DNA of 64,000 nt from Neptuniibacter caesariensis (lineage in GTDB: Bacteria > Pseudomonadota > Gammaproteobacteria > Pseudomonadales > Balneatricaceae). The DNA is taken from positions 1,218,607 to 1,282,606 of the forward strand of contig NZ_CH724125.1 in assembly GCF_000153345.1 (NCBI RefSeq), given 5' to 3'. The notes below the pieces were generated by a model. The model did not search any database, was not told the DNA's origin, and was given only the letters and a program-made list of their open reading frames with translations. The position numbers and the translations under genes are program-made. Positions 7,812-44,258 of this stretch are shown here, one piece after another. Positions within the stretch are counted from its first letter, which is position 1; the number at the start of each line of letters is the position of its first letter.

Positions 7812-9332
7812 ATGAGTTATACCCCAGAGAGAATGACACCCCTAAACGCATGTCGCTTAGGTTTAGATACCCATCAGGAACCCACTATCTACTTACGACA
7901 GGATAGTCCAGTCTGCCGCTCGGAAGGCTTCTCTGCACTCTCTCGTGTGCTTGTTCGCACAGAACAACGACACCTTATCGCAACCCTGCATATGGTAACA
8001 GGCGAGTTATTAATGCCTGGTGAGATAGGCTTTTCAGAGTCTGCCTGGAAACGACTAGAGCTTCGTGAAGGTACCTCCGTTTGGTTATCTCACCCTAAAC
8101 CTGTGCAATCGCTCTCCTACATCCGTTCTAAGGTTTATGGCAATGAACTCAGCCAATCCGAACTTAAAGAGATCATTGAGGATATTGTGGCAGGCCGCTA
8201 TGCGGATGTTCACTTAGCTGCTTTTATTACTGCCTGCGGTGATGACAAACTCAATATCCGCGAGATCACAGACCTGACCACCGCAATGGTCGAGTCGGGT
8301 AGTTCGATTGAATGGGGATTACCGATCGTTGTGGATAAACATTGTGTTGGCGGATTACCGGGAAACAGAACAACCCCGATTCTGGTTTCAATACTCACCG
8401 CAGCTGGCCTGACCATGCCCAAAACGTCATCAAGGGCAATCACATCCCCTGCTGGAACAGCGGATACAATGGAGACACTTACGAATGTAAGCCTCAGCCT
8501 TGACCAAATGCGTACCGTAGTTGAGCAAGAGGGAGGCTGTTTAGCCTGGGGGGGATCAGTAAAATTATCCCCCTCTGATGATCTATTGATTCAGGTTGAA
8601 AGAGCACTGGATATCGACAGTGAGGGACAGCTAATCGCTTCAGTGCTTTCCAAGAAAATTGCCGCAGGTGCTACCCATGTTGTAATCGATATACCTGTAG
8701 GCCCCACTGCAAAAGTACGTAGTCAGGAAGCCGCTGAAGTTCTTGCCGCAAACTTTAAAACCGTTGCAGACACTTTAGGTCTTAAAATAACGACCTTATT
8801 TACTGACGGCTCCCAACCGGTAGGTCGTGGGATAGGGCCTTCACTTGAAGCCAGAGATATTCTCGCAGTGCTTAAACAAGACCCGGACATGCCAAAAGAC
8901 CTTTACCAGCGTGCCTCAGAAGTCGCCGGCGCAGTGCTTGAAATGGTTCAAGGCTTAGGACCCGGTGAAGGATATAAGAAAGCCATTGAGATACTTAATT
9001 CCGGCGCGGCATGGGAAAAGTTCCAAGCGATCTGCCATGCGCAAGGGGCCTTTAAGAGACCACCAATCGCACCCTACCGATATGAGTTGGTCGCTAAAAC
9101 TCGTGGGGTTGTTAGCTGTATAAACAACCGTAAACTGGCCAAGGTAGCTAAATTGGCTGGAGCGCCAGCGGATCTCGCGGCAGGTCTGGATCTACATTGT
9201 AAGATTGGCGATCCTATCGAGCCTCAACAAACTCTGCTCACCATCCACGCAGAAAGCTCGGGCGAGCTCAGTTATGCTGTCGAGTATCTTGAAGACCATC
9301 TGGATATCATTGAATTGGCTAAGGATAAGTGA
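7812..9332 (+). CDS. AMP phosphorylase / thymidine phosphorylase-2 family enzyme
   Basis: This 506-residue enzyme belongs to the long thymidine-phosphorylase-like family that includes archaeal AMP phosphorylase. It has the family's N-terminal domain (1-90) and the phosphate/base-binding motif DKHCVGGLPGNRTTP, followed by KTSSRAITSPAGTADTME. That loop matches AMP phosphorylases (VPGNRTTP type) rather than the KHSTGGVGD form of classic DeoA. It would cleave a nucleoside monophosphate with phosphate to give a free base and ribose-1,5-bisphosphate. GGAGAGA precedes the ATG. It heads a tight three-gene operon with a PRPP-synthetase-like gene and an AlkB-like gene. The substrate is inferred. Confidence 0.85.
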   Translation: MSYTPERMTPLNACRLGLDTHQEPTIYLRQDSPVCRSEGFSALSRVLVRTEQRHLIATLHMVTGELLMPGEIGFSESAWKRLELREGTSVWLSHPKPVQSLSYIRSKVYGNELSQSELKEIIEDIVAGRYADVHLAAFITACGDDKLNIREITDLTTAMVESGSSIEWGLPIVVDKHCVGGLPGNRTTPILVSILTAAGLTMPKTSSRAITSPAGTADTMETLTNVSLSLDQMRTVVEQEGGCLAWGGSVKLSPSDDLLIQVERALDIDSEGQLIASVLSKKIAAGATHVVIDIPVGPTAKVRSQEAAEVLAANFKTVADTLGLKITTLFTDGSQPVGRGIGPSLEARDILAVLKQDPDMPKDLYQRASEVAGAVLEMVQGLGPGEGYKKAIEILNSGAAWEKFQAICHAQGAFKRPPIAPYRYELVAKTRGVVSCINNRKLAKVAKLAGAPADLAAGLDLHCKIGDPIEPQQTLLTIHAESSGELSYAVEYLEDHLDIIELAKDK

Positions 9333-10914: not shown

Positions 10915-13551
10915 ATGAATAGCTACGCTATTACACCTAACCCTGTCATTGAGGGAGATCCCAGTACAGAAGAGCTGAAAACAATTCTTCAACTGCAAAA
11001 CCAAGTACTGGAAAAGGTTGTCCAAGATACAACCCGTGCGCAGATTCTCGAACAGATCTGCCATTTTGTGGAAAAGTGTGTACCGGATTGCGTTGCTTCA
11101 ATCATGTTGTTTGATTCAGACCAAAAGTGTCTGAACGTGAGTTGCGCGCCAAGTATACCAAGAGAGGCACAAGTTCTGCTGGACGGGATGGTTCCCGGAG
11201 TCGGCGCGGGCTCTTGTGGGACCTCTGTTTTCCTGGGTTCTCCTGTTTTTGTCATTGATACCGCGGAAGACAACCGCTGGGATCAACTTCGACCTATAGC
11301 TCAACAGCTCGATCTACGTGCTTGTTGGTCATATCCGATCCGCACAGATGCTGATGAGATTGCCGGTAGTTTCGCAATATCCAGTTTTACACCTCGTCAG
11401 CCCACGCCTTTCCACGCGCAGTTGTTAGAAGCCGCAGCAAACATCGCGGGCATTGTCCTGAACCGCTTTAGTTCGCAAGAGAATTTGCAACACAAAGAGC
11501 GCCTGCTGGAGAACATTACCCAGGCAATGCCCGGCGTGGTTTATCAGTACCATCTGGATGACGAGCTAAAACAATCCTTCACTTACATTGGACCCGGCAT
11601 AGAGACCATATCAGGCATCACCGCTGAAGCAGCCATAGAAGACTTCAGCGAATTCTGGGAACAAGTCCATCCGGATGACCGATCTGGCCTTTGGGCCAGC
11701 ATTGTTCATACCGGCAAACATGGTCTGGCCTGGAGCCACGAGTTCAGAGTTTTTCATAAAAACGGCCAGATGCATTGGGTTAGAGGATCCGCTTTACCAA
11801 GCAAACTTGGCTCTCAGGAAGGCCTGCTTTGGAATGGTATTATCCTCGACATAACACCTGAAAAAGCCTCTATTGAGCAACTTCGTCTTGCCGGAATCGC
11901 ATTTTCCAGTACCAACGAAGGGATCATGATTACGGATAAACGTAATCGGATCATCGATATCAACCGCGCCTATATGAACATCAGTGGTTATGGGCGTGAC
12001 GAGTTAATCGGCAAGAACCCATCGATCCTGCGCTCAGAGCATCACAGTAATGAGTTCTATCAATCGATCTGGAAATCTCTGGAAGAGGAAAGGCACTGGC
12101 AAGGAGAGATCTGGAACCGACTCAAAAATGGTGAGGTTGTTCCGCACTGGGTCAATATAAATGCAGTCCACGATCCAAACACCGATGCCCTAACCCACTT
12201 CGTCAGTGTTATCGCCGATATTAGTAATATTAAGGCTTCTGAAGAGAAGTTATCTCACCTGGCGCACCACGACGCCCTGACTAATTTACCTAACCGGTTA
12301 TTATTTAGTGCCCGACTGGATCATGCACTCACCCACCGAGAAGCGTCTGAAAAGATCGTGATGTTTCATCTTGATCTTGACCGTTTCAAGCACATTAACG
12401 ATAGCTTAGGTCACAAATACGGTGATCAGCTCCTTCTGCAAGTCACCGAAAGACTTAAGGGCGTTCTTTCCGATAAAGATACCCTTGCCCGTGTCGGGGG
12501 TGACGAGTTTGCCATCCTTGTTGAAGAGCTTGAACATGTCTCTGATGCAGAATCGATAGCTGATCGTCTGGTTGAAGCAATGGAACAACCTTTCACACTG
12601 GATGGCAAAGATTACTTCACCACCGCGAGTATTGGTTTAGCACTCGCCCCCGATCACGGCGACGATATAGACACGCTAACCAAGCATGCAGATATTGCGT
12701 TGAACCAGGCAAAGGATAGCGGCCGCAATAACTTCGCCTTTTTCCAGCCTGAGTTATCAGAAACTGTGCAGGAATGGATCAAGCTAGAACCTGAACTGCG
12801 TAAAGCCCTGGCAGAAAACCAGTTCCAGTTACATTATCAACCTCAGGTTGATAGCACCGGAACAGCCATCGTAGGTGCAGAAGCTCTGATTCGCTGGCAC
12901 CACCCCGAAATGGGCATCATTCCGCCTAACCAATTCCTTCCTATCGCGGAAGAGATTGGCTTAATGAATAAGATTGGCGAATGGGTCATGAACACAGCGC
13001 TTGAGCAACTATCCTTCTGGCGCTCAAGAGGGCTGATCGGTTTCCGCTTAGCGATAAACCTAGCGGGTGATCAGATCACTAAACAGAATTTGCCTATGGT
13101 GGTGATGCAAGCATTAGAGCACTTCCAGATCCCTGCTGAGATGCTGGAGCTGGAAATTCTGGAAACTTTCCTGATGGAACACGAAGAGGAAGCGACTTCC
13201 ACCTTCAAACAACTTCGGGAATTAGGTGTGCATCTCTCACTAGACGATTTCGGTACCGGCTATTCCGCATTGAGTTACCTGAAAAAGCTGCCAATCACAA
13301 AAGTTAAGATCGACCAGTCTTTGGTAAGAGATATCCCGGAGGATCCAAATGATGAAGCGATCGCAAAAGCCGTGATACTGCTTGCGCATACACTCGACCT
13401 GACCGTCTGTGCTGAAGGAGTAGAAACCCGGGCTCAGCGAGAGTTTCTTGAATCTGAAAATTGCGACCAGTTACAAGGTTACCTTTTCAGTAAACCTATT
13501 GAAGCCAACGCGTTTACAAACCTTCTGAAGAAGCACAATAAACTGGCCTGA
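10915..13551 (+). CDS. GAF-PAS-PAS-GGDEF-EAL c-di-GMP signalling protein
   Basis: This 878-residue cytoplasmic protein has no transmembrane segment. A GAF domain (about 30-185) has motifs such as GAGSCGTSVF. Two PAS domains follow (about 200-325 and 325-445), then a GGDEF domain with intact RVGGDEF (residues 528-532) and an EAL domain with intact EAL (656-658) and DDFGTGYSAL. The position five residues before GGDEF reads SDKD, so the RxxD inhibition site is absent. Both cyclase and phosphodiesterase activity are possible. The ATG at 10915 is chosen over the TTG three bases upstream; neither has a strong ribosome-binding site. Confidence 0.92.
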   Translation: MNSYAITPNPVIEGDPSTEELKTILQLQNQVLEKVVQDTTRAQILEQICHFVEKCVPDCVASIMLFDSDQKCLNVSCAPSIPREAQVLLDGMVPGVGAGSCGTSVFLGSPVFVIDTAEDNRWDQLRPIAQQLDLRACWSYPIRTDADEIAGSFAISSFTPRQPTPFHAQLLEAAANIAGIVLNRFSSQENLQHKERLLENITQAMPGVVYQYHLDDELKQSFTYIGPGIETISGITAEAAIEDFSEFWEQVHPDDRSGLWASIVHTGKHGLAWSHEFRVFHKNGQMHWVRGSALPSKLGSQEGLLWNGIILDITPEKASIEQLRLAGIAFSSTNEGIMITDKRNRIIDINRAYMNISGYGRDELIGKNPSILRSEHHSNEFYQSIWKSLEEERHWQGEIWNRLKNGEVVPHWVNINAVHDPNTDALTHFVSVIADISNIKASEEKLSHLAHHDALTNLPNRLLFSARLDHALTHREASEKIVMFHLDLDRFKHINDSLGHKYGDQLLLQVTERLKGVLSDKDTLARVGGDEFAILVEELEHVSDAESIADRLVEAMEQPFTLDGKDYFTTASIGLALAPDHGDDIDTLTKHADIALNQAKDSGRNNFAFFQPELSETVQEWIKLEPELRKALAENQFQLHYQPQVDSTGTAIVGAEALIRWHHPEMGIIPPNQFLPIAEEIGLMNKIGEWVMNTALEQLSFWRSRGLIGFRLAINLAGDQITKQNLPMVVMQALEHFQIPAEMLELEILETFLMEHEEEATSTFKQLRELGVHLSLDDFGTGYSALSYLKKLPITKVKIDQSLVRDIPEDPNDEAIAKAVILLAHTLDLTVCAEGVETRAQREFLESENCDQLQGYLFSKPIEANAFTNLLKKHNKLA

Positions 13552-35649: not shown

Positions 35650-36462
35650 CTATTCGCCCGAAACGCGCAATCGGGTTTTTCTTAACTCTGTCGGGGTCAG
35701 ATTAAACAGTTGCTTAAACTTGTCGGTAAAACGGGATTGGGAGCTATAGCCGCACTGCTCTGCAATAAGGCCAATCGGTTCTAAACTGGTTTGCAGCAGA
35801 TGTAACCCATAGCCCAACCGGGCCCGGTCTTTAATCCCTTGCAGGCTGTTGCCTTCAGCGCTGAGTTTTCTTCGCAGAGTCGATTCGCTCATCGCCAGCA
35901 TCGAAGCAAGATCACTGGCTTCCAGATTAGCCGCCACATTATCGCTGATGATCGTATGGACTTTGTGGCTTAGGGTGGGTGGCTCCATAATCCCCCCAAC
36001 CTGCTCAAAGCCCAGTGATAGCAACAGTTGAAGAATCTCCTGACGGCGCAGGTACCATAGTTCAGCCGGGGCGGTTGCAGACCACTCGATGAACTGCTGC
36101 AGCGTCAACTCGAGCCTGGATTCAATTTCGCCACGAAAGAAGGTTTCAGTGCTCGCTTTTCGATCTTTCAGGCAATCAAAGTCTGCATAATCGAACTCAA
36201 TCAGTAGCGCAAAATATTCCTCATCATTGGGAATATTACGCATCGCGATATTCGGCGTATTCGACAGAAAAACAAAACTCCCCGCCGGGCAGTTAATCGC
36301 ATCGACGCCCAGCTCTTTTCTTCCAGACAGAATAAAGATCAACAGGGGCTTCAATACCGGTACATTGAATAAACGCTGCTCGGCAGAGGAGCAGTAAATG
36401 GAAAACGGTAAGCTATCGTTTTCCTGAAGGATATTCCGAGCGGTTTCGATGAGTTTATGCAT
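35650..36462 (-). CDS. AraC-family transcriptional regulator
   Basis: This 270-residue regulator has an N-terminal cupin-like sensing domain (about 1-165) and a C-terminal pair of helix-turn-helices (about 170-265). The second shows the family signature QCGYSSQSRFTDKFKQLFNLTPTELR. The start is placed at the ATG at 36462; a TTG six bases upstream gives two extra residues. It probably controls the adjacent PEBP-like gene or itself. The inducer is unknown. Confidence 0.88.
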   Translation of the reverse strand: MHKLIETARNILQENDSLPFSIYCSSAEQRLFNVPVLKPLLIFILSGRKELGVDAINCPAGSFVFLSNTPNIAMRNIPNDEEYFALLIEFDYADFDCLKDRKASTETFFRGEIESRLELTLQQFIEWSATAPAELWYLRRQEILQLLLSLGFEQVGGIMEPPTLSHKVHTIISDNVAANLEASDLASMLAMSESTLRRKLSAEGNSLQGIKDRARLGYGLHLLQTSLEPIGLIAEQCGYSSQSRFTDKFKQLFNLTPTELRKTRLRVSGE

Positions 36463-36597
36463 AGCCAATAAAGAATCGCCTAAAGGGGAAGCCAGTTGTT
36501 GTTAGCACTGCACTGCGCTGCACTTCAGCTCAAAATATACCTATCACTCAGAGTGAATGCACTCAAAGCCTTGTTGATATCTTAAGACTTTGGTTAA

Positions 36598-36860
36598 GGA
36601 ACCTGCGAACAAGCCCTGGACGACTCAGGCTTACAGAGCGGTTCAAGATCAAGGCAACGATTACAGACATACTGGTTGTACGTCGAAGATCGTTAACGCA
36701 GAGATTGAATCGCTCTGTAAGCCCCTTTGGGTGGGCACTATAATGACTTACTGCTTTGTCAGGCAGTTTGGAAAGGACACGTCATTACACTGCATTGCCT
36801 TTCGCGCACTAAGCCGTTTTATTGCCCACTGAGAAAGTCCGAGACTTATTCGCAGGTTCC
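36598..36860. mobile_element. MITE-like palindromic element
   Basis: This 263-bp element is bounded by terminal inverted repeats GGAACCTGCGAACAAG (36598-36613) and CTTATTCGCAGGTTCC (36845-36860), matching at 15 of 16 positions. Nested inside are a perfect 13-bp pair (36628-36640 with 36711-36723) and shorter pairs TAATGAC/GTCATTA and GTGGGCA/TGCCCAC. It has no real coding capacity. The ends look like those of an IS5-class transposon, so an unlinked transposase would move it. No clear target duplication was found. Confidence 0.7.
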
Positions 36861-36943
36861 CCAAGCTAAGGCAGCAAAGTATTCAGCACGATAACTTGAT
36901 AGAATGCGCTTCGGTTTAAGATAGCGAGTCAAAGAGATAGTTC

Positions 36944-37357
36944 ATGAAAACTCCCAGCTGTGAATATGGCGTCAACGACAACTCCTACCAAATGGCAGGT
37001 GGGATCGAAGGTCTGACCCGATTGGTCGATGACTTTTATCGATTTATGGATGAGCTACCTGAAGCGAAGACTATTCGCGATATGCACCCGGAAGACCTGA
37101 CCGAGTCACGCCAGAAACTCGCTTACTTTCTTTCCGGCTGGTTAGGCGGCCCAAAGCTGTACTCGCAAAACTATGGCTCTATCCGCATCCCCATGGCCCA
37201 CAAACATCTGCCGATCGTTGAGGAAGACAGTGAGATGTGGATTTTGTGTATGCAGAAGGCAGTCGAGCTACAGCCCTATGAAGCACCCTTTAAGGATTAT
37301 CTGATCGAACAACTCAGAGTACCGGCAGGCAGAATCACCCAGGTCTGCCGCAGATAA
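36944..37357 (+). CDS. Group II truncated hemoglobin
   Basis: This 137-residue haem protein of the trHbO group reads GLTRLVDDFYRFMDELPEAKTI, then MHPEDLTESRQKLAYFLSGWLGGP, and MAHKHLPI with the proximal His. The family binds oxygen or nitric oxide and may serve in oxygen delivery or peroxide chemistry. AAGAGATA precedes the ATG. The MITE-like element ends 84 bp upstream, so the promoter lies in or near its edge. Confidence 0.92.
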   Translation: MKTPSCEYGVNDNSYQMAGGIEGLTRLVDDFYRFMDELPEAKTIRDMHPEDLTESRQKLAYFLSGWLGGPKLYSQNYGSIRIPMAHKHLPIVEEDSEMWILCMQKAVELQPYEAPFKDYLIEQLRVPAGRITQVCRR

Positions 37358-37415
37358 CCCGGGATACATTGAACTGTTTTTATAAATACTGACTACCCAT
37401 CATTGAGCACTAATC

Positions 37416-37691
37416 ATGATCAAATTTTTCCGTATCATCAGCCTGCTTGAAGGCCTATCCTACCTGGCCATTTTAAGCGTCACGCTGGGTTATATCAGCC
37501 GCGACTATGTTTCCTCTATCGGCATGACCCACGGCATCCTGTTTATGATCTATATGATCCTGGCCATGTCCAACAACACCGGCTGGACCTCACGCCAGCA
37601 ACTATTGTTAATGGCAGCTGCGCTGATCCCCTTCGCCTTTATCCCCACCGAGATCTATTTACAGAAGGCAGAACAGAAAAAACCGGCATAA
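37416..37691 (+). CDS. DUF3817 membrane protein
   Basis: This 91-residue inner-membrane protein has three hydrophobic helices and the DUF3817 pattern: FFRIISLLEGLSYLAIL, then GMTHGILFMIYM, ending with IPFAFIPTEIYL. Function is unknown. It lies 58 bp downstream of the hemoglobin gene on the same strand and ends inside a terminator, so the two may form one unit. Confidence 0.9.
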   Translation: MIKFFRIISLLEGLSYLAILSVTLGYISRDYVSSIGMTHGILFMIYMILAMSNNTGWTSRQQLLLMAAALIPFAFIPTEIYLQKAEQKKPA

Positions 37692-37703
37692 AGCCGGTTT
37701 TTT
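37679..37703 (+). terminator. Rho-independent terminator
   Basis: AAAACCGGC (37679-37687) pairs with GCCGGTTTT (37693-37701), followed by more T. The DUF3817 stop codon falls in the loop. The flanking A and T runs make it usable in both directions. Confidence 0.85.
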
Positions 37704-37752
37704 GTTGGGTTCATGTAGTTCAGGAAATGGCTTCTCCCTTTAATCCATTCCT

Positions 37753-38637
37753 TTATCCGGCCCCGTTTTCCCTGAACCAACGCTCTAAAAAACTGATACA
37801 CAGCTTAATTTTAGGAGGGGCCAACCGTCTGGCAGGGTACATGGCATATAGAGTTAAACGAGGCCTTGCTACGTTTTTTAGCAGCTCTACGACCTGCCCT
37901 TCACGAATTGAATTTCCAGCAATAAAATCAGGTATAAATCCAATACCTAAGCCATTTTTCACGACATCAAGCATAAAGGGTGTACTGTTCACGCGTAGGT
38001 TGCCACCCACCTTTACGCCCTCACCAAGCGGCCAAATATCCTGCCCTCTGAAATAGCTATAGATAAAACAGTTGTGTTCCGACAACTCTTCAACCGTCGT
38101 GATTGGGCCCTGTTCTTTCAGGTACTCTGCCGATGCGCAAACACTATAGCTAAAGTCCATAAGTGGTTTACCGACATAACCGGAATCAAACGGACGGCTT
38201 GCTGCTCTGAACCCGAGATCAAAACCATTTTCAATCAGATCGACTGGGGCATCATCAAGATGTATATCCAATTCGATTTCTGGATATTCACGCATAAAAT
38301 CTGAAAAAACCTGGCTCAGGTGTGAGATACCTAATGCCATGGGCGCATTAATCTTTAACTTTCCGCGGGGTAAATCTTGCGCCCCCTGCACAAAACTTTC
38401 AGCATCATCAATGCGCTCTAAAATATCATGACAATGACGCAGATAACCCTCGCCTATAGTGGTTAGCTGTAACGAACGGGTAGAACGGTGAATTAATCGG
38501 GCACCGACTTCCGCCTCAAGTCGACTGATCTCTTTACTAACCATTGATTTAGACAAGCCAAGCTCTTCGGCGACTTCAGTAAAGCTCCCCCGCTCAGCTA
38601 AGCGGATGAACAATGACATTGCCCTGAGTTTATCCAT
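37753..38637 (-). CDS. LysR-type transcriptional regulator
   Basis: This 294-residue regulator has an N-terminal winged helix (RAMSLFIRLAERGSFTEVAE and GLSKSMVSKEISRLE) and a periplasmic-binding-like effector domain. It is of the large CrgA/AaeR-like group. The start at 38637 has GGAAAC seven bases upstream; a TTG at 38649 is excluded. It is divergent from the GST gene with a palindrome between them, so it probably controls that operon. Confidence 0.92.
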   Translation of the reverse strand: MDKLRAMSLFIRLAERGSFTEVAEELGLSKSMVSKEISRLEAEVGARLIHRSTRSLQLTTIGEGYLRHCHDILERIDDAESFVQGAQDLPRGKLKINAPMALGISHLSQVFSDFMREYPEIELDIHLDDAPVDLIENGFDLGFRAASRPFDSGYVGKPLMDFSYSVCASAEYLKEQGPITTVEELSEHNCFIYSYFRGQDIWPLGEGVKVGGNLRVNSTPFMLDVVKNGLGIGFIPDFIAGNSIREGQVVELLKNVARPRLTLYAMYPARRLAPPKIKLCISFLERWFRENGAG

Positions 38638-38653
38638 ACAAGTTTCCAATACG

Positions 38654-38668
38654 TGAACAGTACGTTCA
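38654..38668. promoter_or_regulatory. Candidate LysR operator TGAAC-N5-GTTCA
   Basis: A perfect inverted repeat lies 16 bp upstream of the LysR start and about 80 bp upstream of the GST start, in the shared divergent promoter. The position fits autoregulation and control of the GST operon. Confidence 0.5.
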
Positions 38669-38748
38669 TATTGTAGATATATATGAAACCTGACAAGCGA
38701 TTTATTCTGATTCTGTCTTTTACGATCTGACCTAATCAGGAGAATCCT

Positions 38749-39354
38749 ATGTACACCTTGTATTACCTGCCCAACGCTTGCTCACTTGCGACACTGACTG
38801 TTTTGTTAGAGATGGATGAGTCTGTCAGCCTGATTAACAAAAATAAGGTTACAGACTTCTCGGTAATCAACCCTGTGGGTAACGTCCCCGTGCTCATCGA
38901 TGAGGGTAAAACGCTGACAGAAGGTGCAGCCATCATGCTTTACCTATTGGGCTCCAAAACCAATCAGCTGTTTCCTCAAGACAAAAGTGATCAGCAAAAA
39001 GCCATTCAGAACATTATGTTTGCCAATGCAACGATGCATCCCGCCTACGGCAGACTGTTCTTTATCACTCAAAATATGACCGAAGGGCCTGAGAAGGATA
39101 TGGCCTTAATCGCCGCCGCTAACGCGATCAATACCCTGTGGGAATCAGTAGAAGCTCAACTAGAAAACCGCAACTACCTCGGCGGAGAATCAGTCTCAGC
39201 GGCTGACATTATGCTCGCCGTCTATTCACGTTGGGGGGAGTATTTTCCCGTTGAGATAAAGCTGGGTACACGCACAACAGCCATGCTTAACCGCGTTATT
39301 GAAAGGCCGACCTTTAAGCAAGCACTGCTAATGGAGGCCGAAAATGACAACTAA
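38749..39354 (+). CDS. Glutathione S-transferase family protein
   Basis: This 201-residue GST has a thioredoxin-like N-terminal domain (YYLPNACSLATLTVLLE, then the cis-Pro in NVPVLIDEGKTLTEGAAI) and an alpha-helical C-terminal domain with NYLGGESVSAADIML. Ser12 or Cys11 could be catalytic, as in beta-class enzymes. It probably conjugates or isomerises an electrophile. It overlaps the next gene by 11 bp and heads an operon divergent from the LysR gene. Confidence 0.92.
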   Translation: MYTLYYLPNACSLATLTVLLEMDESVSLINKNKVTDFSVINPVGNVPVLIDEGKTLTEGAAIMLYLLGSKTNQLFPQDKSDQQKAIQNIMFANATMHPAYGRLFFITQNMTEGPEKDMALIAAANAINTLWESVEAQLENRNYLGGESVSAADIMLAVYSRWGEYFPVEIKLGTRTTAMLNRVIERPTFKQALLMEAENDN

Positions 39355-39739
39355 CCCAGCAATAGATGATGACTTCACGATGATTCGTAACATCATCAAC
39401 AGCTATTTTACCGGTTTATATCAGGGCAATAGCAGCCAACTGAAAGCGATCTTTCACCCAACGGCCATGCTGAAAAGCCCAGGTAATTTCCGCTCACTAG
39501 AACGCTGGCTGCAAGATGTCGAAACCCGGGCAACCCCTGAGTCACTTGGCCAGCCATTTAACTTTAAGGTGCTGTCCATCGAGATCATCCACGACCAAGC
39601 GATGGTCAAACTGGAATGCCCATTATTCGATTATTTCTATATCGATTTTTTAGGCTTACTAAAGGAACAGGGGCGCTGGCTGATTGTTAACAAAATGTAT
39701 ACAGACATCGCCCAAACAACTGAGACAAGTGCCGCATGA
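39344..39739 (+). CDS. NTF2-like (lumazine-binding-type) protein
   Basis: This 131-residue protein has the NTF2-like cone fold: an N-terminal helix (IRNIINSYFTGLYQG), then FHPTAMLKSPG, and paired strands ending in WLIVNKMYTD. It fits the putative lumazine-binding group. Such proteins are often small hydrolases or isomerases. It overlaps the GST gene, which implies joint action on a shared substrate. Confidence 0.8.
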   Translation: MTTNPAIDDDFTMIRNIINSYFTGLYQGNSSQLKAIFHPTAMLKSPGNFRSLERWLQDVETRATPESLGQPFNFKVLSIEIIHDQAMVKLECPLFDYFYIDFLGLLKEQGRWLIVNKMYTDIAQTTETSAA

Positions 39740-39802
39740 AGCCCCTTAAGCGAGAATATTTGAAGGGCCGAATCCAGCCACTTATCAACAAGAGTACTTA
39801 AC

Positions 39803-40157: not shown

Positions 40158-40226
40158 CGCATAACGCCTCAAAAAATGGCGTGCAGAGCGCGTCAAAGCA
40201 AAGCGATTTAATTGACTTGTTATAAG
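40158..40226 (-). repeat. attC-like recombination site A
   Basis: Read on the minus strand, the site starts TTATAACAAGTC and ends GAGGCGTTATGCG, the paired core sites of integron cassette attC elements, around an imperfect palindrome. It directly follows the stop of the 40228 gene, as expected for a cassette, and ends the array. Confidence 0.75.
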
Positions 40227-40227
40227 T

Positions 40228-40626
40228 TTACTTACAGATACCAGTTAGAGTTTTTGAACCCATATTCATAATAAATGGTTTGTTCATACCTTCATGGTTT
40301 TCCTGAACTCGTAAATAAACAGAATTATGCGCGCCTTTGATTCCTATAACTTCGCGCGAGATCCATATTAGTTGGTATGACTGTTCCTCGCTGCCGACAT
40401 CTATAACTTGTTTTGTTGGGTATGAGCTATTTCCAACCCCAGTGCCCGAGACAACACCAGTCCTTTTTTCTACATTAAACTTAGACCCAACATAGAGTTG
40501 GTTACCACTCTCAAGACTGCCCGAGCTCGCCAGGTAGAATTCACTTTTAACTTCACAACTATATGAAAGAGAACCTGCCGAAACTAAACATGGAACACAC
40601 AACAAAAGAAGAATGACAGCTCTCAT
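40228..40626 (-). CDS. Cassette gene: secreted hypothetical protein
   Basis: This 132-residue protein has a signal peptide (MRAVILLLLCVPCLVSAG) and a small beta-rich mature domain with two Cys (SYSCEV near the start and LTGICK at the end), possibly a disulfide pair. I recognise no family. The start is at 40626, six bases after CAGGA; another ATG lies six bases upstream. It is flanked on both sides by attC-like sites, so it is a mobile gene cassette. The region looks AT-richer than the surrounding chromosome. Confidence 0.7.
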   Translation of the reverse strand: MRAVILLLLCVPCLVSAGSLSYSCEVKSEFYLASSGSLESGNQLYVGSKFNVEKRTGVVSGTGVGNSSYPTKQVIDVGSEEQSYQLIWISREVIGIKGAHNSVYLRVQENHEGMNKPFIMNMGSKTLTGICK

Positions 40627-40638
40627 AAGCATCCTGAC

Positions 40639-40698
40639 TTATAACGCCTCAAACACTCGCGCCGCTTGCTGACTCCGAGTGCTTTGACTTGTTATGTT
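40639..40698 (-). repeat. attC-like recombination site B
   Basis: Minus-strand reading starts ACATAACAAGTC and ends GAGGCGTTATAAG. The arms CAAAGCACTCGG and GCGAGTGTTTG are near-complementary with unpaired bases, as in attC folds. The 40649 gene ends inside it. Confidence 0.8.
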
Positions 40699-41512
40699 TT
40701 TGTGCTTCAGCAATTTGCCTAAGATCTAGTTCGTTATACATTGGCATACTAGGAGCAACAAAAGCCCAAGCTAAAGCATCTGTATCCTTTGGTTCAGCCT
40801 GTATTGTAAATGGATCGATAGGGCCGCCTCTTAAGGAATCAGGCTGCACCCAACCTTGAGATTTTGGAAAGAATTTCACTTCCATTCTCTCCAGCTTCTC
40901 AAAATCAATTACTTGATTAAGTGGAAACTTACCTATGATTGTTTGAATTGTCGGATACCCATTTGTTATATCAATTTCTGAAGGCTCTTCGACTGGCACA
41001 TTTAGCTTTATAGGGTTCTGACCTGGGTATACTAAGAAAGTCTCAACATTTCGGTACTTTGAATTCCATAAAGCCCAGCTCATTCGTTGTAGAAGATCAT
41101 GTGTTAGCCCAATTGCAGACGTCTTACTAACTATCTCTTGTGGCTCTGCATTTTGAAACTCAAGACCACCGTGAAAATGAGTAACAATAGTTAGATCTTT
41201 AAACTTATCTTCAAGAGCATACGATTTACGCTCCATCACACTCATGATCCACTTTTCTGGTTCGTATGGAATCTGAAGAATCGAATAAAAAGGTTCTTTT
41301 CTCTTTTTGAAATCAGAATTGTAAAACTTAAAAACTTCCCATGTGTCGAAAGCTGTGAACTCTATCGGTAAAGATTTTTTCCCGTTCGTAGCAATACAGT
41401 CAGGAGGATCTTGATTTGGCACGACTACCTCATACCCATTGGGGAACTCGGAAATAAGGAATGGGCTTAGGAGATCTAAAGCCCATTTTTCCATGTTATC
41501 TAAAACTCGCAT
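40649..41512 (-). CDS. Cassette gene: hypothetical protein, possible nuclease-like fold
   Basis: This 287-residue protein has no membrane segment or signal. Near the N-terminus DPPDCIATNGKKSLPIEFTAFD resembles the D...ExT/K spacing of PD-(D/E)xK nucleases, but this is only a motif hint. The start is the ATG at 41512 with AGGGAAAGG upstream; the longer frame to 41662 would translate the neighbouring attC. The last roughly 15 residues (from HNKSKHSESAS) are encoded by attC site B, so the native tail was fixed by the recombination site. The family is unknown. Confidence 0.7.
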   Translation of the reverse strand: MRVLDNMEKWALDLLSPFLISEFPNGYEVVVPNQDPPDCIATNGKKSLPIEFTAFDTWEVFKFYNSDFKKRKEPFYSILQIPYEPEKWIMSVMERKSYALEDKFKDLTIVTHFHGGLEFQNAEPQEIVSKTSAIGLTHDLLQRMSWALWNSKYRNVETFLVYPGQNPIKLNVPVEEPSEIDITNGYPTIQTIIGKFPLNQVIDFEKLERMEVKFFPKSQGWVQPDSLRGGPIDPFTIQAEPKDTDALAWAFVAPSMPMYNELDLRQIAEAQKHNKSKHSESASGASV

Positions 41513-41533
41513 TACCTTTCCCTGCTTTTCCGA

Positions 41534-41622
41534 ACATAACGCTTTTGTAATGGGCCGTATTGCTGCGAAGCAGCCATTTAGCGGTCCTGCCAAAGAGCGA
41601 TTATTCACAAACTTGTTATGCG
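41534..41622 (-). repeat. attC-like recombination site C
   Basis: Minus-strand reading starts GCATAACAAG and ends AAAGCGTTATGTTC, about 89 bases, longer than the other sites and with a central GCTGC/GCAGC hairpin. It separates the 287-residue and EF-Tu-domain cassettes. Confidence 0.75.
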
Positions 41623-41627
41623 GCTGG

Positions 41628-41954
41628 CTACTTTGCATTGCTTGCCGATTGTTCCAGCTCAATGATTTTGGTTATTACACCTTTGCCTACAGTACGGGCA
41701 CCTTCTCTAACTAGGAACTCCATACCTACGTGAACTTTACCAATATGTTCTTTGGGACTAAGAAAGCCAATGTATGCTCGAACTGTTTCACCTGGCTGGG
41801 CAACGTCTACGTCAGGGTAAATGTGTGAGGCATCCCAATCTTGCTCGTTGTAATAAAATTGCGGCCTATAACCAGTAAAAGCAGGAGCAGACCTGCCGCC
41901 TTCTTCTGCGGTGAGGTAATATATTTCTGCTTCGATATCTTTAGGTACTGGCAT
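41628..41954 (-). CDS. Cassette gene: free-standing EF-Tu domain 3 protein
   Basis: This 108-residue protein is clearly homologous to the C-terminal domain of elongation factor Tu. It has IEAEIYYLTAEEGGRSAP, GYRPQFYY, and FLVREGARTVGKGVITKIIE, matching EF-Tu's EGGR...YRPQFY...IREGGRTVGAGVV pattern. No GTPase or second domain is present. In EF-Tu this domain binds tRNA and EF-Ts. The gene sits between attC-like sites C and D with a short leader after site D and no strong ribosome-binding site. Its role is unknown. A decoy or modifier of EF-Tu interactions is a speculation. Confidence 0.85.
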   Translation of the reverse strand: MPVPKDIEAEIYYLTAEEGGRSAPAFTGYRPQFYYNEQDWDASHIYPDVDVAQPGETVRAYIGFLSPKEHIGKVHVGMEFLVREGARTVGKGVITKIIELEQSASNAK

Positions 41955-41965
41955 ATTTATTGGGT

Positions 41966-42022
41966 CACATAACGCCTCAATAAGGGGCGCCGTAGGCGTC
42001 CCACTTGATTGGCTTGTTAGCT
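41966..42022 (-). repeat. attC-like recombination site D
   Basis: Minus-strand reading starts GCTAACAAGCC and ends GAGGCGTTATGTG. It folds as CAATCAAGTGGGACGCC against GGCGCCCCTTATTG around TAC, with unpaired extra bases on one arm, a classic short attC. It supplies the TAA stop of the 42017 gene. Confidence 0.85.
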
Positions 42023-42637
42023 ACGGCCACCATCAAAAATCTGTTTATGTATTATTTTTAAGTCTTTGTTGGTAATGTCGATATCAATTTCGTGCAAGAT
42101 TGCATCTATTATCTCTTCATCAGCTTTACCGATTTTCCCCTTTGGATCGCCAGAAATGATACGCATAGTATTTAATGTGGCACAACCTGTGAACAAATAC
42201 CTTTTATAGTTATTCCTCAGTTGATTCCTTGTTTCATCTGTAACTTTGGTGGCTTTGATCTCTGTACAATAACCTTTGAGAGCTTCAATTTGTACTTGTA
42301 AGGATTTAGCGGCATAGCGTTGCTCTTCACTAAGCAATTGAAAGCTATTATTCATGGTGTCTTTTAAGAAGTAGCAGCTAATTTCTCGAGGTACATAATA
42401 CCAAGGTTGATCCACTTTCGGTTCGCCATTTTTTTCCCAATAATTCATATTATCCAAGCACGATGCCATATTTCTTAATTTATCGGGTAATATTTTTATT
42501 TCATCTGTCAGTTCAAGCTTCAAGTTTTCAAATATTTCTTGAGACTTTGCCTTATTCTTACGCTTTTCTATGTAAGGAACTAGATACACACCTAGGAAAA
42601 AAGTAACAAAGGGTAAAGCTGCTTTGACTTCCAACAT
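42017..42637 (-). CDS. Cassette gene: membrane-anchored hypothetical protein
   Basis: This 206-residue protein has one N-terminal transmembrane helix (about 5-24, AALPFVTFFLGVYLVPYI) followed by a basic KRKNK stop and a cytoplasmic, helical, charged domain. There is no known motif. The start at 42637 has AAGGA eight bases upstream; an upstream ATG at 42664 lacks one. The stop codon is provided by attC site D. It is the first cassette of the array as transcribed. The upstream junction is not recognisable, apart from TGTTAGCTAC near 42706-42717 (minus strand), which repeats part of site D. Confidence 0.65.
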   Translation of the reverse strand: MLEVKAALPFVTFFLGVYLVPYIEKRKNKAKSQEIFENLKLELTDEIKILPDKLRNMASCLDNMNYWEKNGEPKVDQPWYYVPREISCYFLKDTMNNSFQLLSEEQRYAAKSLQVQIEALKGYCTEIKATKVTDETRNQLRNNYKRYLFTGCATLNTMRIISGDPKGKIGKADEEIIDAILHEIDIDITNKDLKIIHKQIFDGGRS

Positions 42638-42664
42638 TACAGTGTCCTTAAAATAATATTCCAT

Positions 42665-43088
42665 AAAAGCTCAGTTATCGTACCGGTAGGACTATATTTG
42701 ATTAGTAGCTAACAGCTAAATACATATCAGATTGACATGATTAAACGCGTCAATTTGATATATATCTCCGAATGAGAACATAGGGGGAGGAAGAGAAACT
42801 CTTAGATATCATAAGCTTTCCTTGCTTTGTGATCTTAAAGGACGGGAAAAACCATCAGATTGATCCAGTATCCTTACATAAGTCATTCATGAAATAAATA
42901 GGCTTATTGCAGCAACTGGATCTTATCCAGCATGGTCATTCAATAGATAGATTCTTGCTTCTATGTGAATGATGTTATAGTTCCAAACAATAAAAAAAAC
43001 CCGGCTGTGCCGGGTCTTAAATATTTATCTCTAGCGACGCAGTTGCGTCCTAGCCACTAGAAGCGAAGCGTTCTCTAGGCCTTGCTCA
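42665..43088. other. Gene-free boundary between cassette array and cobalamin operon
   Basis: No ORF is credible here. It contains a 13-bp inverted repeat (42724-42736 with 42749-42761, one mismatch), the terminator at 42991-43015, and small palindromes near 43034-43078 that may be degenerate REP copies. No integrase gene or attI-like site was found. Confidence 0.5.
42991..43015 (-). terminator. Terminator of the cobalamin operon
   Basis: ACCCGGC (42999-43005) pairs with GCCGGGT (43009-43015); on the minus strand this is followed by eight T. It lies 74 bp past the cbiX stop and marks the 3' end of the operon. Confidence 0.85.
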
Positions 43089-44258
43089 TCAACGATGAGC
43101 GAGGGCGTCCTGCGGATCGCAAAGCGCGATCCTTTCCTTCTCCTCTTCCAGAATCTCTTCCGGGAACTGAGACATAAAGCAGCAGCAGATGCCTTCGCCG
43201 ATCATAGTGCGTGGACCCAGCGGATGGCCGATATGCTTGTAGACGCCGTGGGAGTGACCATGCTCGTGAGAATGACCATGCTCATGACTATGAGAATGGC
43301 CGTGCGAGTGATCATGATGATGGTGATGCCCATGTGAATGATCGTGGCTATGATCATGGCTATGTGAGTGATCATGGCTGTGACCATGCTCAGCATCCGG
43401 ATTAAATTCCGCATGGTGGTGATGCACATCCACCTCACCGGCAGCCAGACGACGCTGGAACGATTCCATCAGGGTCTCGTTGTCTTTCAGGTTGCCATCC
43501 AGGATCTCGCGAACACGGATCTCAAAGGCATCGATTACTTTTTCGTGATCGTTCAGGTATGGGGTTTTGATAAACTCGATACCCGGGTTTTCACCGGCAA
43601 CTTTATCCACATAACCGAAGATACGTTTGATCAGACGGCCGGTAAACAGGAAGTACGGCGCTACCACAATCTTCTTGAAGCCCAGCTTCATCAGGCGCTC
43701 AAGGCCGACACCGACAGAGGGGTAAGTCACACCCGAGTAGACGATATCTGCCCAGCCAAAGCCCATGTTTTCATTCACAATACGGGTCAGCTTCGCCGCT
43801 TCGGCGTTGGCTTCAGTATCAGAGGTACCACGGCCTACCACCACCAACATAGTGTCATACAGGCTTTCAGGTGGGTTTTCCGGATCCAGCCCCATAGACT
43901 CATAGATACGCGCCTGGAAAGCTTCGATCATCGCCGGGTGCAGACCCAGCTCTTTGCCGTAATGAACCTCTACGCCATCATTCTTTTCAGCGTAGGTGGT
44001 CAGTACAGAAGGAATATCATTTTTGGCATGGGTTGCCGCAAACAGCATACCCGGCACAGCGTAGATATCTTCTACACCCTGCTCGATCAGGGAGTTAAGC
44101 CCCATATGAATATTCGGTGCAGAAAACTCTAAAAAACCATACTCAACCGGCATGTCCGGGAAGCGTTTTTTCAACCCTTCAGCAACACGACCAAACTCTC
44201 TTTCTGCATCTTTGTCACGACTACCGTGACCGCAAACCATAATACCTTTTTTAGGCAC
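43089..44258 (-). CDS. cbiX: Sirohydrochlorin cobaltochelatase CbiX (long form)
   Basis: This 389-residue class II chelatase inserts cobalt into sirohydrochlorin, the first step of the early-cobalt (anaerobic-type) cobalamin route. Two chelatase half-domains cover about 1-125 and 135-265, with the active-site His in CGHGSRD and FAATHAKND. A His/Asp/Ser-rich tract of roughly 65 residues follows (about 278-345), probably a cobalt or nickel store. The tail has ICCCF (near residue 357), like the Cys-rich iron-sulfur site of other long CbiX proteins. It is the last gene of the operon. A REP doublet separates it from cobD. Confidence 0.92.
   Translation of the reverse strand: MPKKGIMVCGHGSRDKDAEREFGRVAEGLKKRFPDMPVEYGFLEFSAPNIHMGLNSLIEQGVEDIYAVPGMLFAATHAKNDIPSVLTTYAEKNDGVEVHYGKELGLHPAMIEAFQARIYESMGLDPENPPESLYDTMLVVVGRGTSDTEANAEAAKLTRIVNENMGFGWADIVYSGVTYPSVGVGLERLMKLGFKKIVVAPYFLFTGRLIKRIFGYVDKVAGENPGIEFIKTPYLNDHEKVIDAFEIRVREILDGNLKDNETLMESFQRRLAAGEVDVHHHHAEFNPDAEHGHSHDHSHSHDHSHDHSHGHHHHHDHSHGHSHSHEHGHSHEHGHSHGVYKHIGHPLGPRTMIGEGICCCFMSQFPEEILEEEKERIALCDPQDALAHR

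Follow-up and report, generated by a model that had tools for sequence, protein, structure and literature searches.

A minus-strand array of four gene cassettes was identified in a stretch of 64,000 nucleotides from Neptuniibacter caesariensis (contig NZ_CH724125.1, here C5, C5:1218607-1282606; hereafter the window), and the array was found to be headed by an attI-like site situated 376 bp beyond the cbiX gene. Based on all comparisons, we consider it likely that this is a satellite array of a distributed integron, its cassettes having been inserted at an attI module by an integrase encoded elsewhere in the chromosome. It was proposed that an attI module, comprising attI and part of the leader region between the integrase gene (intI) and attI but not intI itself, was placed behind cbiX, and that an integron integrase from elsewhere in the chromosome would insert cassettes at the G|TTA crossover of this module, four being present now. 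One integrase would thereby serve several attI modules, acting in trans.

The attI-like site was located on the minus strand at 42710..42783 (60.6 bits, E 3.7e-16) by using a profile of 79 positions built from 24 sites of relatives, none of which came from the N. caesariensis genome. The original prediction, which was made from the window alone, had recognized no attI on either side of the array and was wrong in this respect. The crossover was mapped to G42713|T42712, read as TATTTAGCTG|TTAGC, and cassette 1 begins exactly there; the array reaches this point at 42712 rather than ending within the limits 40158..42664 first assigned to it. Given the score of the match and the coincidence of the crossover with the cassette boundary, the site was classified as a probable attI at the array head. 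Nested TGAC/TGTC repeats lie upstream of the crossover. In the aligned sites these take the form of GATATATGACAA, TTGTCG, CGACAA and TGTCATATATTTAGCTG, ending at the crossover, and they were read as putative integrase-binding arms. The 14-mer TATTTAGCTGTTAG occurs in exactly two copies in the genome, at the window site and at the intI-linked attI.

The remainder of the presumed module (42784..42900, minus strand, left border approximate) showed partial similarity to the intI-attI intergenic region of relatives. Against a consensus derived from six intI-adjacent sites, the window gave identities of 0.84, 0.88, 0.48, 0.80, 0.44, 0.60, 0.60, 0.12 and 0.33 in successive blocks of 25 informative columns, counted leftwards from the core, and the similarity to the intI-bearing sites ended short of the intI start codon. 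A putative leader open reading frame (ORF) of 20 codons was noted on the minus strand at 42750..42812, with AAGGAAAG before its ATG and its end inside attI. The sites were divided into type A, to which the window and most sites belong, and type B, represented by the site next to serS in N. caesariensis; both are labels of this analysis. An ATG placed 100 nt from the core behind a AAGGAAAG-like sequence was present in 19 of the 27 Neptuniibacter type-A modules, the window included, and opened a frame that terminated within attI after 20 (window) or 23 codons. The start codon was absent in seven of the 27, including two modules of N. caesariensis (L118 and L119), and was placed at 98 nt from the core at the cbiX site of the relative G010. 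The attI of class 1 integrons has a comparable frame, ORF-11.

These features bear on the possibility that the cassettes were inserted off target at a chance genomic site (attG), as was reported for E. coli (cited in PMC12444791). A site of that kind is described as having little beyond a G|TT core and no attI repeats, whereas at the window site the match extends over the family's 57-bp attI and into part of the leader in addition to the core; such an origin was considered highly improbable.

The N. caesariensis genome (3.92 Mb, 6 contigs) contains one intI above the family cut-off. The gene is intact (417.8 bits, C5:419495-420448) and lies between serS (TIGR00414, 567.6 bits) and its own array of 11 attC sites, among the matches listed. 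No intI was found within the 64-kb window, as had been predicted, and none adjoins the attI-like site; the genome-wide search for intI suggested at that time gave nothing near the window and located the intact gene with its array at a distance of about 840 kb, on the contig that holds the window. Four attI sites of this genome were recovered with the profile, namely at C5:599005 (70 bits), in the window (60.6 bits), at C1:28504 (58.1 bits) and at serS (34.4 bits), and each was followed by an attC on its own strand. By the profile, no attI head was detected for the remaining clusters L223-L227, one weak core being seen at L224 4125. We also considered a rearrangement that carried part of the serS-linked array to cbiX, since the attC of cassette 2 in the window is 88% identical to one attC of the serS array. 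The window attI is of type A, however, and 0.60 identical to the type B attI at serS, an attI-like site occupies the same cbiX position in G010, and only attC similarity and no shared cassette genes were revealed when the N. caesariensis arrays were compared by blastn. This explanation was given next to no weight.

Dispersed attI sites were also recorded in relatives, most of which are represented by draft genomes. An exact-pattern scan returned 42 stretches from Neptuniibacter, Amphritea, Marinobacterium jannaschii and two metagenome-assembled genomes of Spongiibacteraceae. With up to 3 mismatches allowed, a 20-mer was found 37 times in 11 Neptuniibacter genomes and its reversed control twice; over all 57 genomes the corresponding figures were 50 and 14. 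The profile search, the initial pass of which scored at most 150 candidates per genome, yielded 35 core-reaching attI sites in the 11 Neptuniibacter genomes, with 3-5 in each of eight, one in G001 and in G006, and none in G002. This count left out opposite-strand shadows and seven weak matches (G004:C57, G010:C7, G002:C1, G008:C260, G010:C6, G005:C74 and the partial G009:C258), two of which, G008:C260 and G005:C74, do reach the core; from a further search, one partial match (G005:C107) was set aside. Among the matches listed, to which all co-occurrence counts refer, 27 of the 35 sites had a same-strand attC no more than 4 kb downstream, one had attC upstream and none had attC within 4 kb on the other strand. 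Five sites were adjoined by intI, which was split between frames at two of them. The other 30, one of which has an intI fragment, were followed by attC in 22 cases. Conversely, 19 of the 35 Neptuniibacter clusters with at least two attC were headed by attI.

Five of the eight sites without a downstream attC (G003 C13, G005 C85, G005 C33, G004 C171 and G004 C46) meet a contig end within about 2.2 kb, at one shared sequence; this was identified as a group II intron (RF00029, Rfam) in L120 and L122, the two scanned among these five, and in L125. As a separate observation, the intron sits in the cassette ends of L120, L122 and L125, at contig ends of N. marinus and N. pectenicola, and its sequence is where the contigs break off for eight arrays from three genomes. 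It was also seen that L121 (G005 C49) carries two tandem attI-like sites (11106-11182 and 8326-8402) with one attC between them, which could show module spread.

Most of the Neptuniibacter genomes examined and several of Amphritea hold more than one attI site, mostly without intI. The cleanest system is that of Amphritea balenae, in which an open intI of 323 amino acids stands at one attI site and two further attI sites have no intI, one of the latter being followed by five attC. The three sites scored 57.3, 66.4 and 54.8 bits with a profile that contained none of them. In the closed genome of Neptuniibacter sp. PT1 (G007), no intI above the cut-off was found, a 22-residue trace was left at serS, and each of four profile attI sites was followed by attC.

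Two other identities of the motif were considered. The motif could be the terminal repeat of a transposon, which was set aside: it adjoins intI in five Neptuniibacter genomes and its orientation towards attC is constant (attC on the opposite strand at 0 of 35 sites), and no partner end was noticed, no transposase search having been made. A mobile carrier was likewise not adopted. No match to the attI motif was found in plasmids, and the one match in IMG/VR (L235) was taken as chance; it lies across the end of a phage ORF of 639 aa that looked portal-like by eye, covers the last 21 profile positions only (17.3 bits) and has no attC.

Further, the loci were grouped by their upstream flanks into serS, alpha, beta and cbiX. 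The serS locus carries intI or, in G007, an intI trace. The alpha locus is shared by five genomes including N. caesariensis, beta by four, and cbiX by the window and G010; at none of these three was an intI remnant detected at E <=0.01. For the closest pair of each locus, G005 and G003, the sequences were nearly identical up to the core and unrelated behind it. At alpha (L120/L137), the six intervals between -1200 and the core gave identities of 0.87-0.98, and those behind it 0.48, 0.49 and 0.39, and at beta (L122/L138), 0.96-1.00 up to the core was followed by 0.44, 0.50 and 0.43, the same measure giving 0.46 on unrelated downstream stretches. The other pairs were less identical upstream, away from the core. 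After the crossover G, each of the 10 alpha and 6 beta pairs matched at just 3-4 bases; in the serS group, up to 7 matched. Because identity persists up to the core and then falls to the level of unrelated sequence, it was concluded that at the intI-less alpha and beta sites cassette replacement took place precisely at the crossover.

Cassette sharing between intI-less arrays of one genome was observed in G017, a genome from a different genus of this family. Cassette X stands directly behind attI in L151, and in L149 and L150 it stands behind two attC that differ from each other; identity begins exactly at G|TT each time and reaches 99.2% between L149 and L150. Cassette Y follows attI in L150 and an attC in L149 (92.7%). 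By extension from these relatives, we infer that an integrase acts in trans, that the window site was filled by the same route and that it may still be usable.

The 57-bp attI sequences also looked more alike within genomes than between them. For 46 sites taken from the 20-mer pattern, which do not include all profile matches, mean identity was 0.856 for sites of one genome (58 pairs) and 0.753 for sites of two genomes (977 pairs); sites at corresponding loci of different genomes, with a close trio set aside, gave 0.809 (25 pairs). When the genome labels were shuffled, the within-genome value was reached in 0 of 5000 trials, a result that partly reflects ancestry and perhaps recent duplication. 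The mean for the three attI of A. balenae was 0.93. The window attI was 0.91 identical to that of L118 in the same genome and 0.65 to its cbiX counterpart in G010, while from -180 to -57 upstream of attI the window and L118 shared only 0.52 identity. The attI thus looks homogenised within the N. caesariensis genome; the likeness may stem from gene conversion or from co-evolution of the sites with an integrase common to them, and either would give it.

The main competing explanation was that several complete integrons at different places each lost intI and left fossil arrays with a conserved attI, in which case no action in trans would be needed. CALINs (clusters of attC sites lacking integrase) have been proposed to be degraded integrons, according to PMC9024848, and remnants of intI do exist: 143 codons beside L141, 22 codons at L143, traces of the intI start in L121, L125 and L142, and an IntI split between frames in G003 and G004. 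None was found at the window, alpha or beta at E <=0.01, and the window similarity gives out before the intI start is reached. Complete replacement of the cassettes at alpha and beta in species that are almost identical and a window attI nearer to another site of its own genome than to its G010 counterpart also argue against fossil arrays, and we regard this explanation as unlikely. The G003 gene (L139 ~2568) has a run of nine identical bases at the frame change, being either an assembly error or a slippage site.

Several observations nevertheless weigh against a distributed integron served in trans. The remnants at L141 and L143 mean that part of the dispersed modules are relics of whole integrons. 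In G003 and G004 the intI gene is split over two frames, in G010 it is reduced to a fragment and in G007 to a trace, and none was detected above the cut-off in G001, G002 and G005. As intI is split in two relatives and below the cut-off in several, some of the exchange must predate intI loss. In G017, the sole IntI match is 44% identical and has an internal stop. At the profile threshold, 16 of the 35 Neptuniibacter clusters have no attI head, and in N. caesariensis the same holds for 2 of 6 multi-attC clusters at the profile-count threshold or 3 of 7 at E <=1. With both attI types pooled, no within-genome homogenisation was seen in G000 (0.749) and G008 (0.687). The sole IntI of N. caesariensis is encoded beside the diverged type B attI, and the window array may have been filled by this or by another enzyme. 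The last arm of the window site is TGATATG instead of TGTCATA as in most Neptuniibacter type-A sites, and given this divergence the site may be decaying. A consensus scan, the only one used, found no sigma-70-like promoter in 42600-43100. Finally, the window locus is too diverged from G010 to show a cassette switch at the crossover: upstream identity is only 0.50-0.68, with an attI-like site at the same position and other content behind it. Taken together, the dispersed attI modules are real and in relatives have served as crossover sites, and action in trans would be the most economical account of them.

At the cbiX locus of G010, the attI-like site is followed by a 588-aa ATPase (L048 9570-11336), which matches OLD/GajA/AriA models (PADLOC AriAB, E 2e-27). 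No attC was found with it; it is possibly a defence gene at the first position.

The array itself largely agreed with the original prediction of four attC sites alternating with four minus-strand genes of mostly unknown families. A covariance model trained on 28 attC sites of relatives, to which the N. caesariensis genome contributed none, returned exactly four matches at E <=1 in the 64 kb, all on the minus strand with E 2.2e-11 to 9.2e-9, and these were interleaved with four minus-strand ORFs of the ORF list. Fewer than two attC, or the same gene order conserved in relatives without attC sequence, had been named as outcomes that would speak against it; four attC were found, and a tblastn search of the regions that follow cbiX in 12 relatives, among which G010 is the closest, detected none of the four genes.

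Cassette 1 (41973-42712) encodes a 215-aa protein (42017..42664, minus) with a hydrophobic stretch near the N terminus, seen by eye, which matches PHROG 31367, a family of unknown function (E 3.6e-10), and closes with an attC at 41967..42022 on the minus strand (45.2 bits, E 8.9e-10). Cassette 2 (41540-41972) carries a gene for 108 aa (41628..41954, minus) that corresponds to a stand-alone EF-Tu domain III (PF03143, E 4.8e-14), a free-standing form of this domain borne by a cassette; its attC lies at 41534..41621, minus (51.1 bits, E 2.2e-11). The 287-aa product of cassette 3 (gene 40649..41512, minus; attC 40639..40697, minus, 41.5 bits, E 9.2e-9; cassette 40645-41539) has no family match, and its own genome was the sole match among 390 genomes drawn from the order. 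The array ends with cassette 4 (40165-40644), which holds an ORF of 134 aa (40228..40632, minus) with a signal-peptide-like start by eye and an attC at 40159..40225, minus (46.2 bits, E 4.8e-10). Three of the four proteins gave nothing above the cut-off in Pfam or NCBIfam, PADLOC matched none of the four, and an Rfam scan of the window returned no match.

The stop codons at 42017 and 40649 fall within attC sequence, which accounts for the two stops noted initially. The genes had also been described as richer in AT than their surroundings. In 500-base windows, the guanine-cytosine content of the array was 34-46%, compared with 43-49% in the left flank (36000-39750) and 43-59% in the right flank (from 43000); the contrast is clear against the right flank and modest against the left. 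Folding of the attC as single-stranded DNA gave z-scores from -0.04 to -3.08, which were not used as evidence. Between cbiX and the attI module, a terminator-like hairpin was noted at 42996..43018 (minus). The adjacent 43089-44258 encodes a protein of the CbiX family whose C-terminal region is long and His-rich.

With at least two attC and no neighboring intI, the window array agrees with the definition of a CALIN, as originally claimed; it is not a bare cluster, being headed by a site of the family that adjoins intI in relatives. The CALIN definition, as given in PMC9024848, requires no such site, and IntegronFinder 2.0 is described there as detecting attI only for class 1. Integrons typically have one attI near the integrase (PMC9024848). 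The sedentary chromosomal integron, represented here by intI beside serS, shares with the window array the attI core, related attC and cassettes joined at G|TT, whereas the window array has no integrase gene and its attI modules are multi-copy and dispersed. In Xanthomonas, intI-less arrays likewise occupy recurrent chromosomal loci and intI, where kept in the genus, stands at ilvD; in contrast, no attI is reported at those CALINs in the available passages of PMC12444791, which also states that IntI can mobilise CALINs in general in trans. The Delta-attI gene cassettes of mobile integrons, whose attI sequence is displaced and works in recombination (as outlined in PMC12901181), resemble the present case in the unusual position of attI; in those cassettes attI forms the end of the cassette, and here it heads chromosomal arrays. 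In Shewanella, CALINs were reported to be common whether or not a genome has intI (PMC9229058), and off-target insertion, intI loss and rearrangement are the origins proposed according to PMC8618304. While CALINs are already known, attI-headed CALINs or dispersed attI were not found in the open-licence literature searched.

For Neptuniibacter and Amphritea as a whole, we lean slightly towards a single integrase acting in trans on dispersed attI-leader modules, each of which would offer a separate first expression position, with attI kept alike per genome and with some genomes, such as G007, keeping modules after intI loss. If attI is multi-copy and served in trans, a genome would have several first positions and several captured genes could be promoter-proximal at once. 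The intI-less arrays then need not be dead, and dispersed attI would be a fourth route of CALIN origin. Part of the CALINs in other genera may, in that case, be attI-headed satellite arrays that are invisible to present tools.

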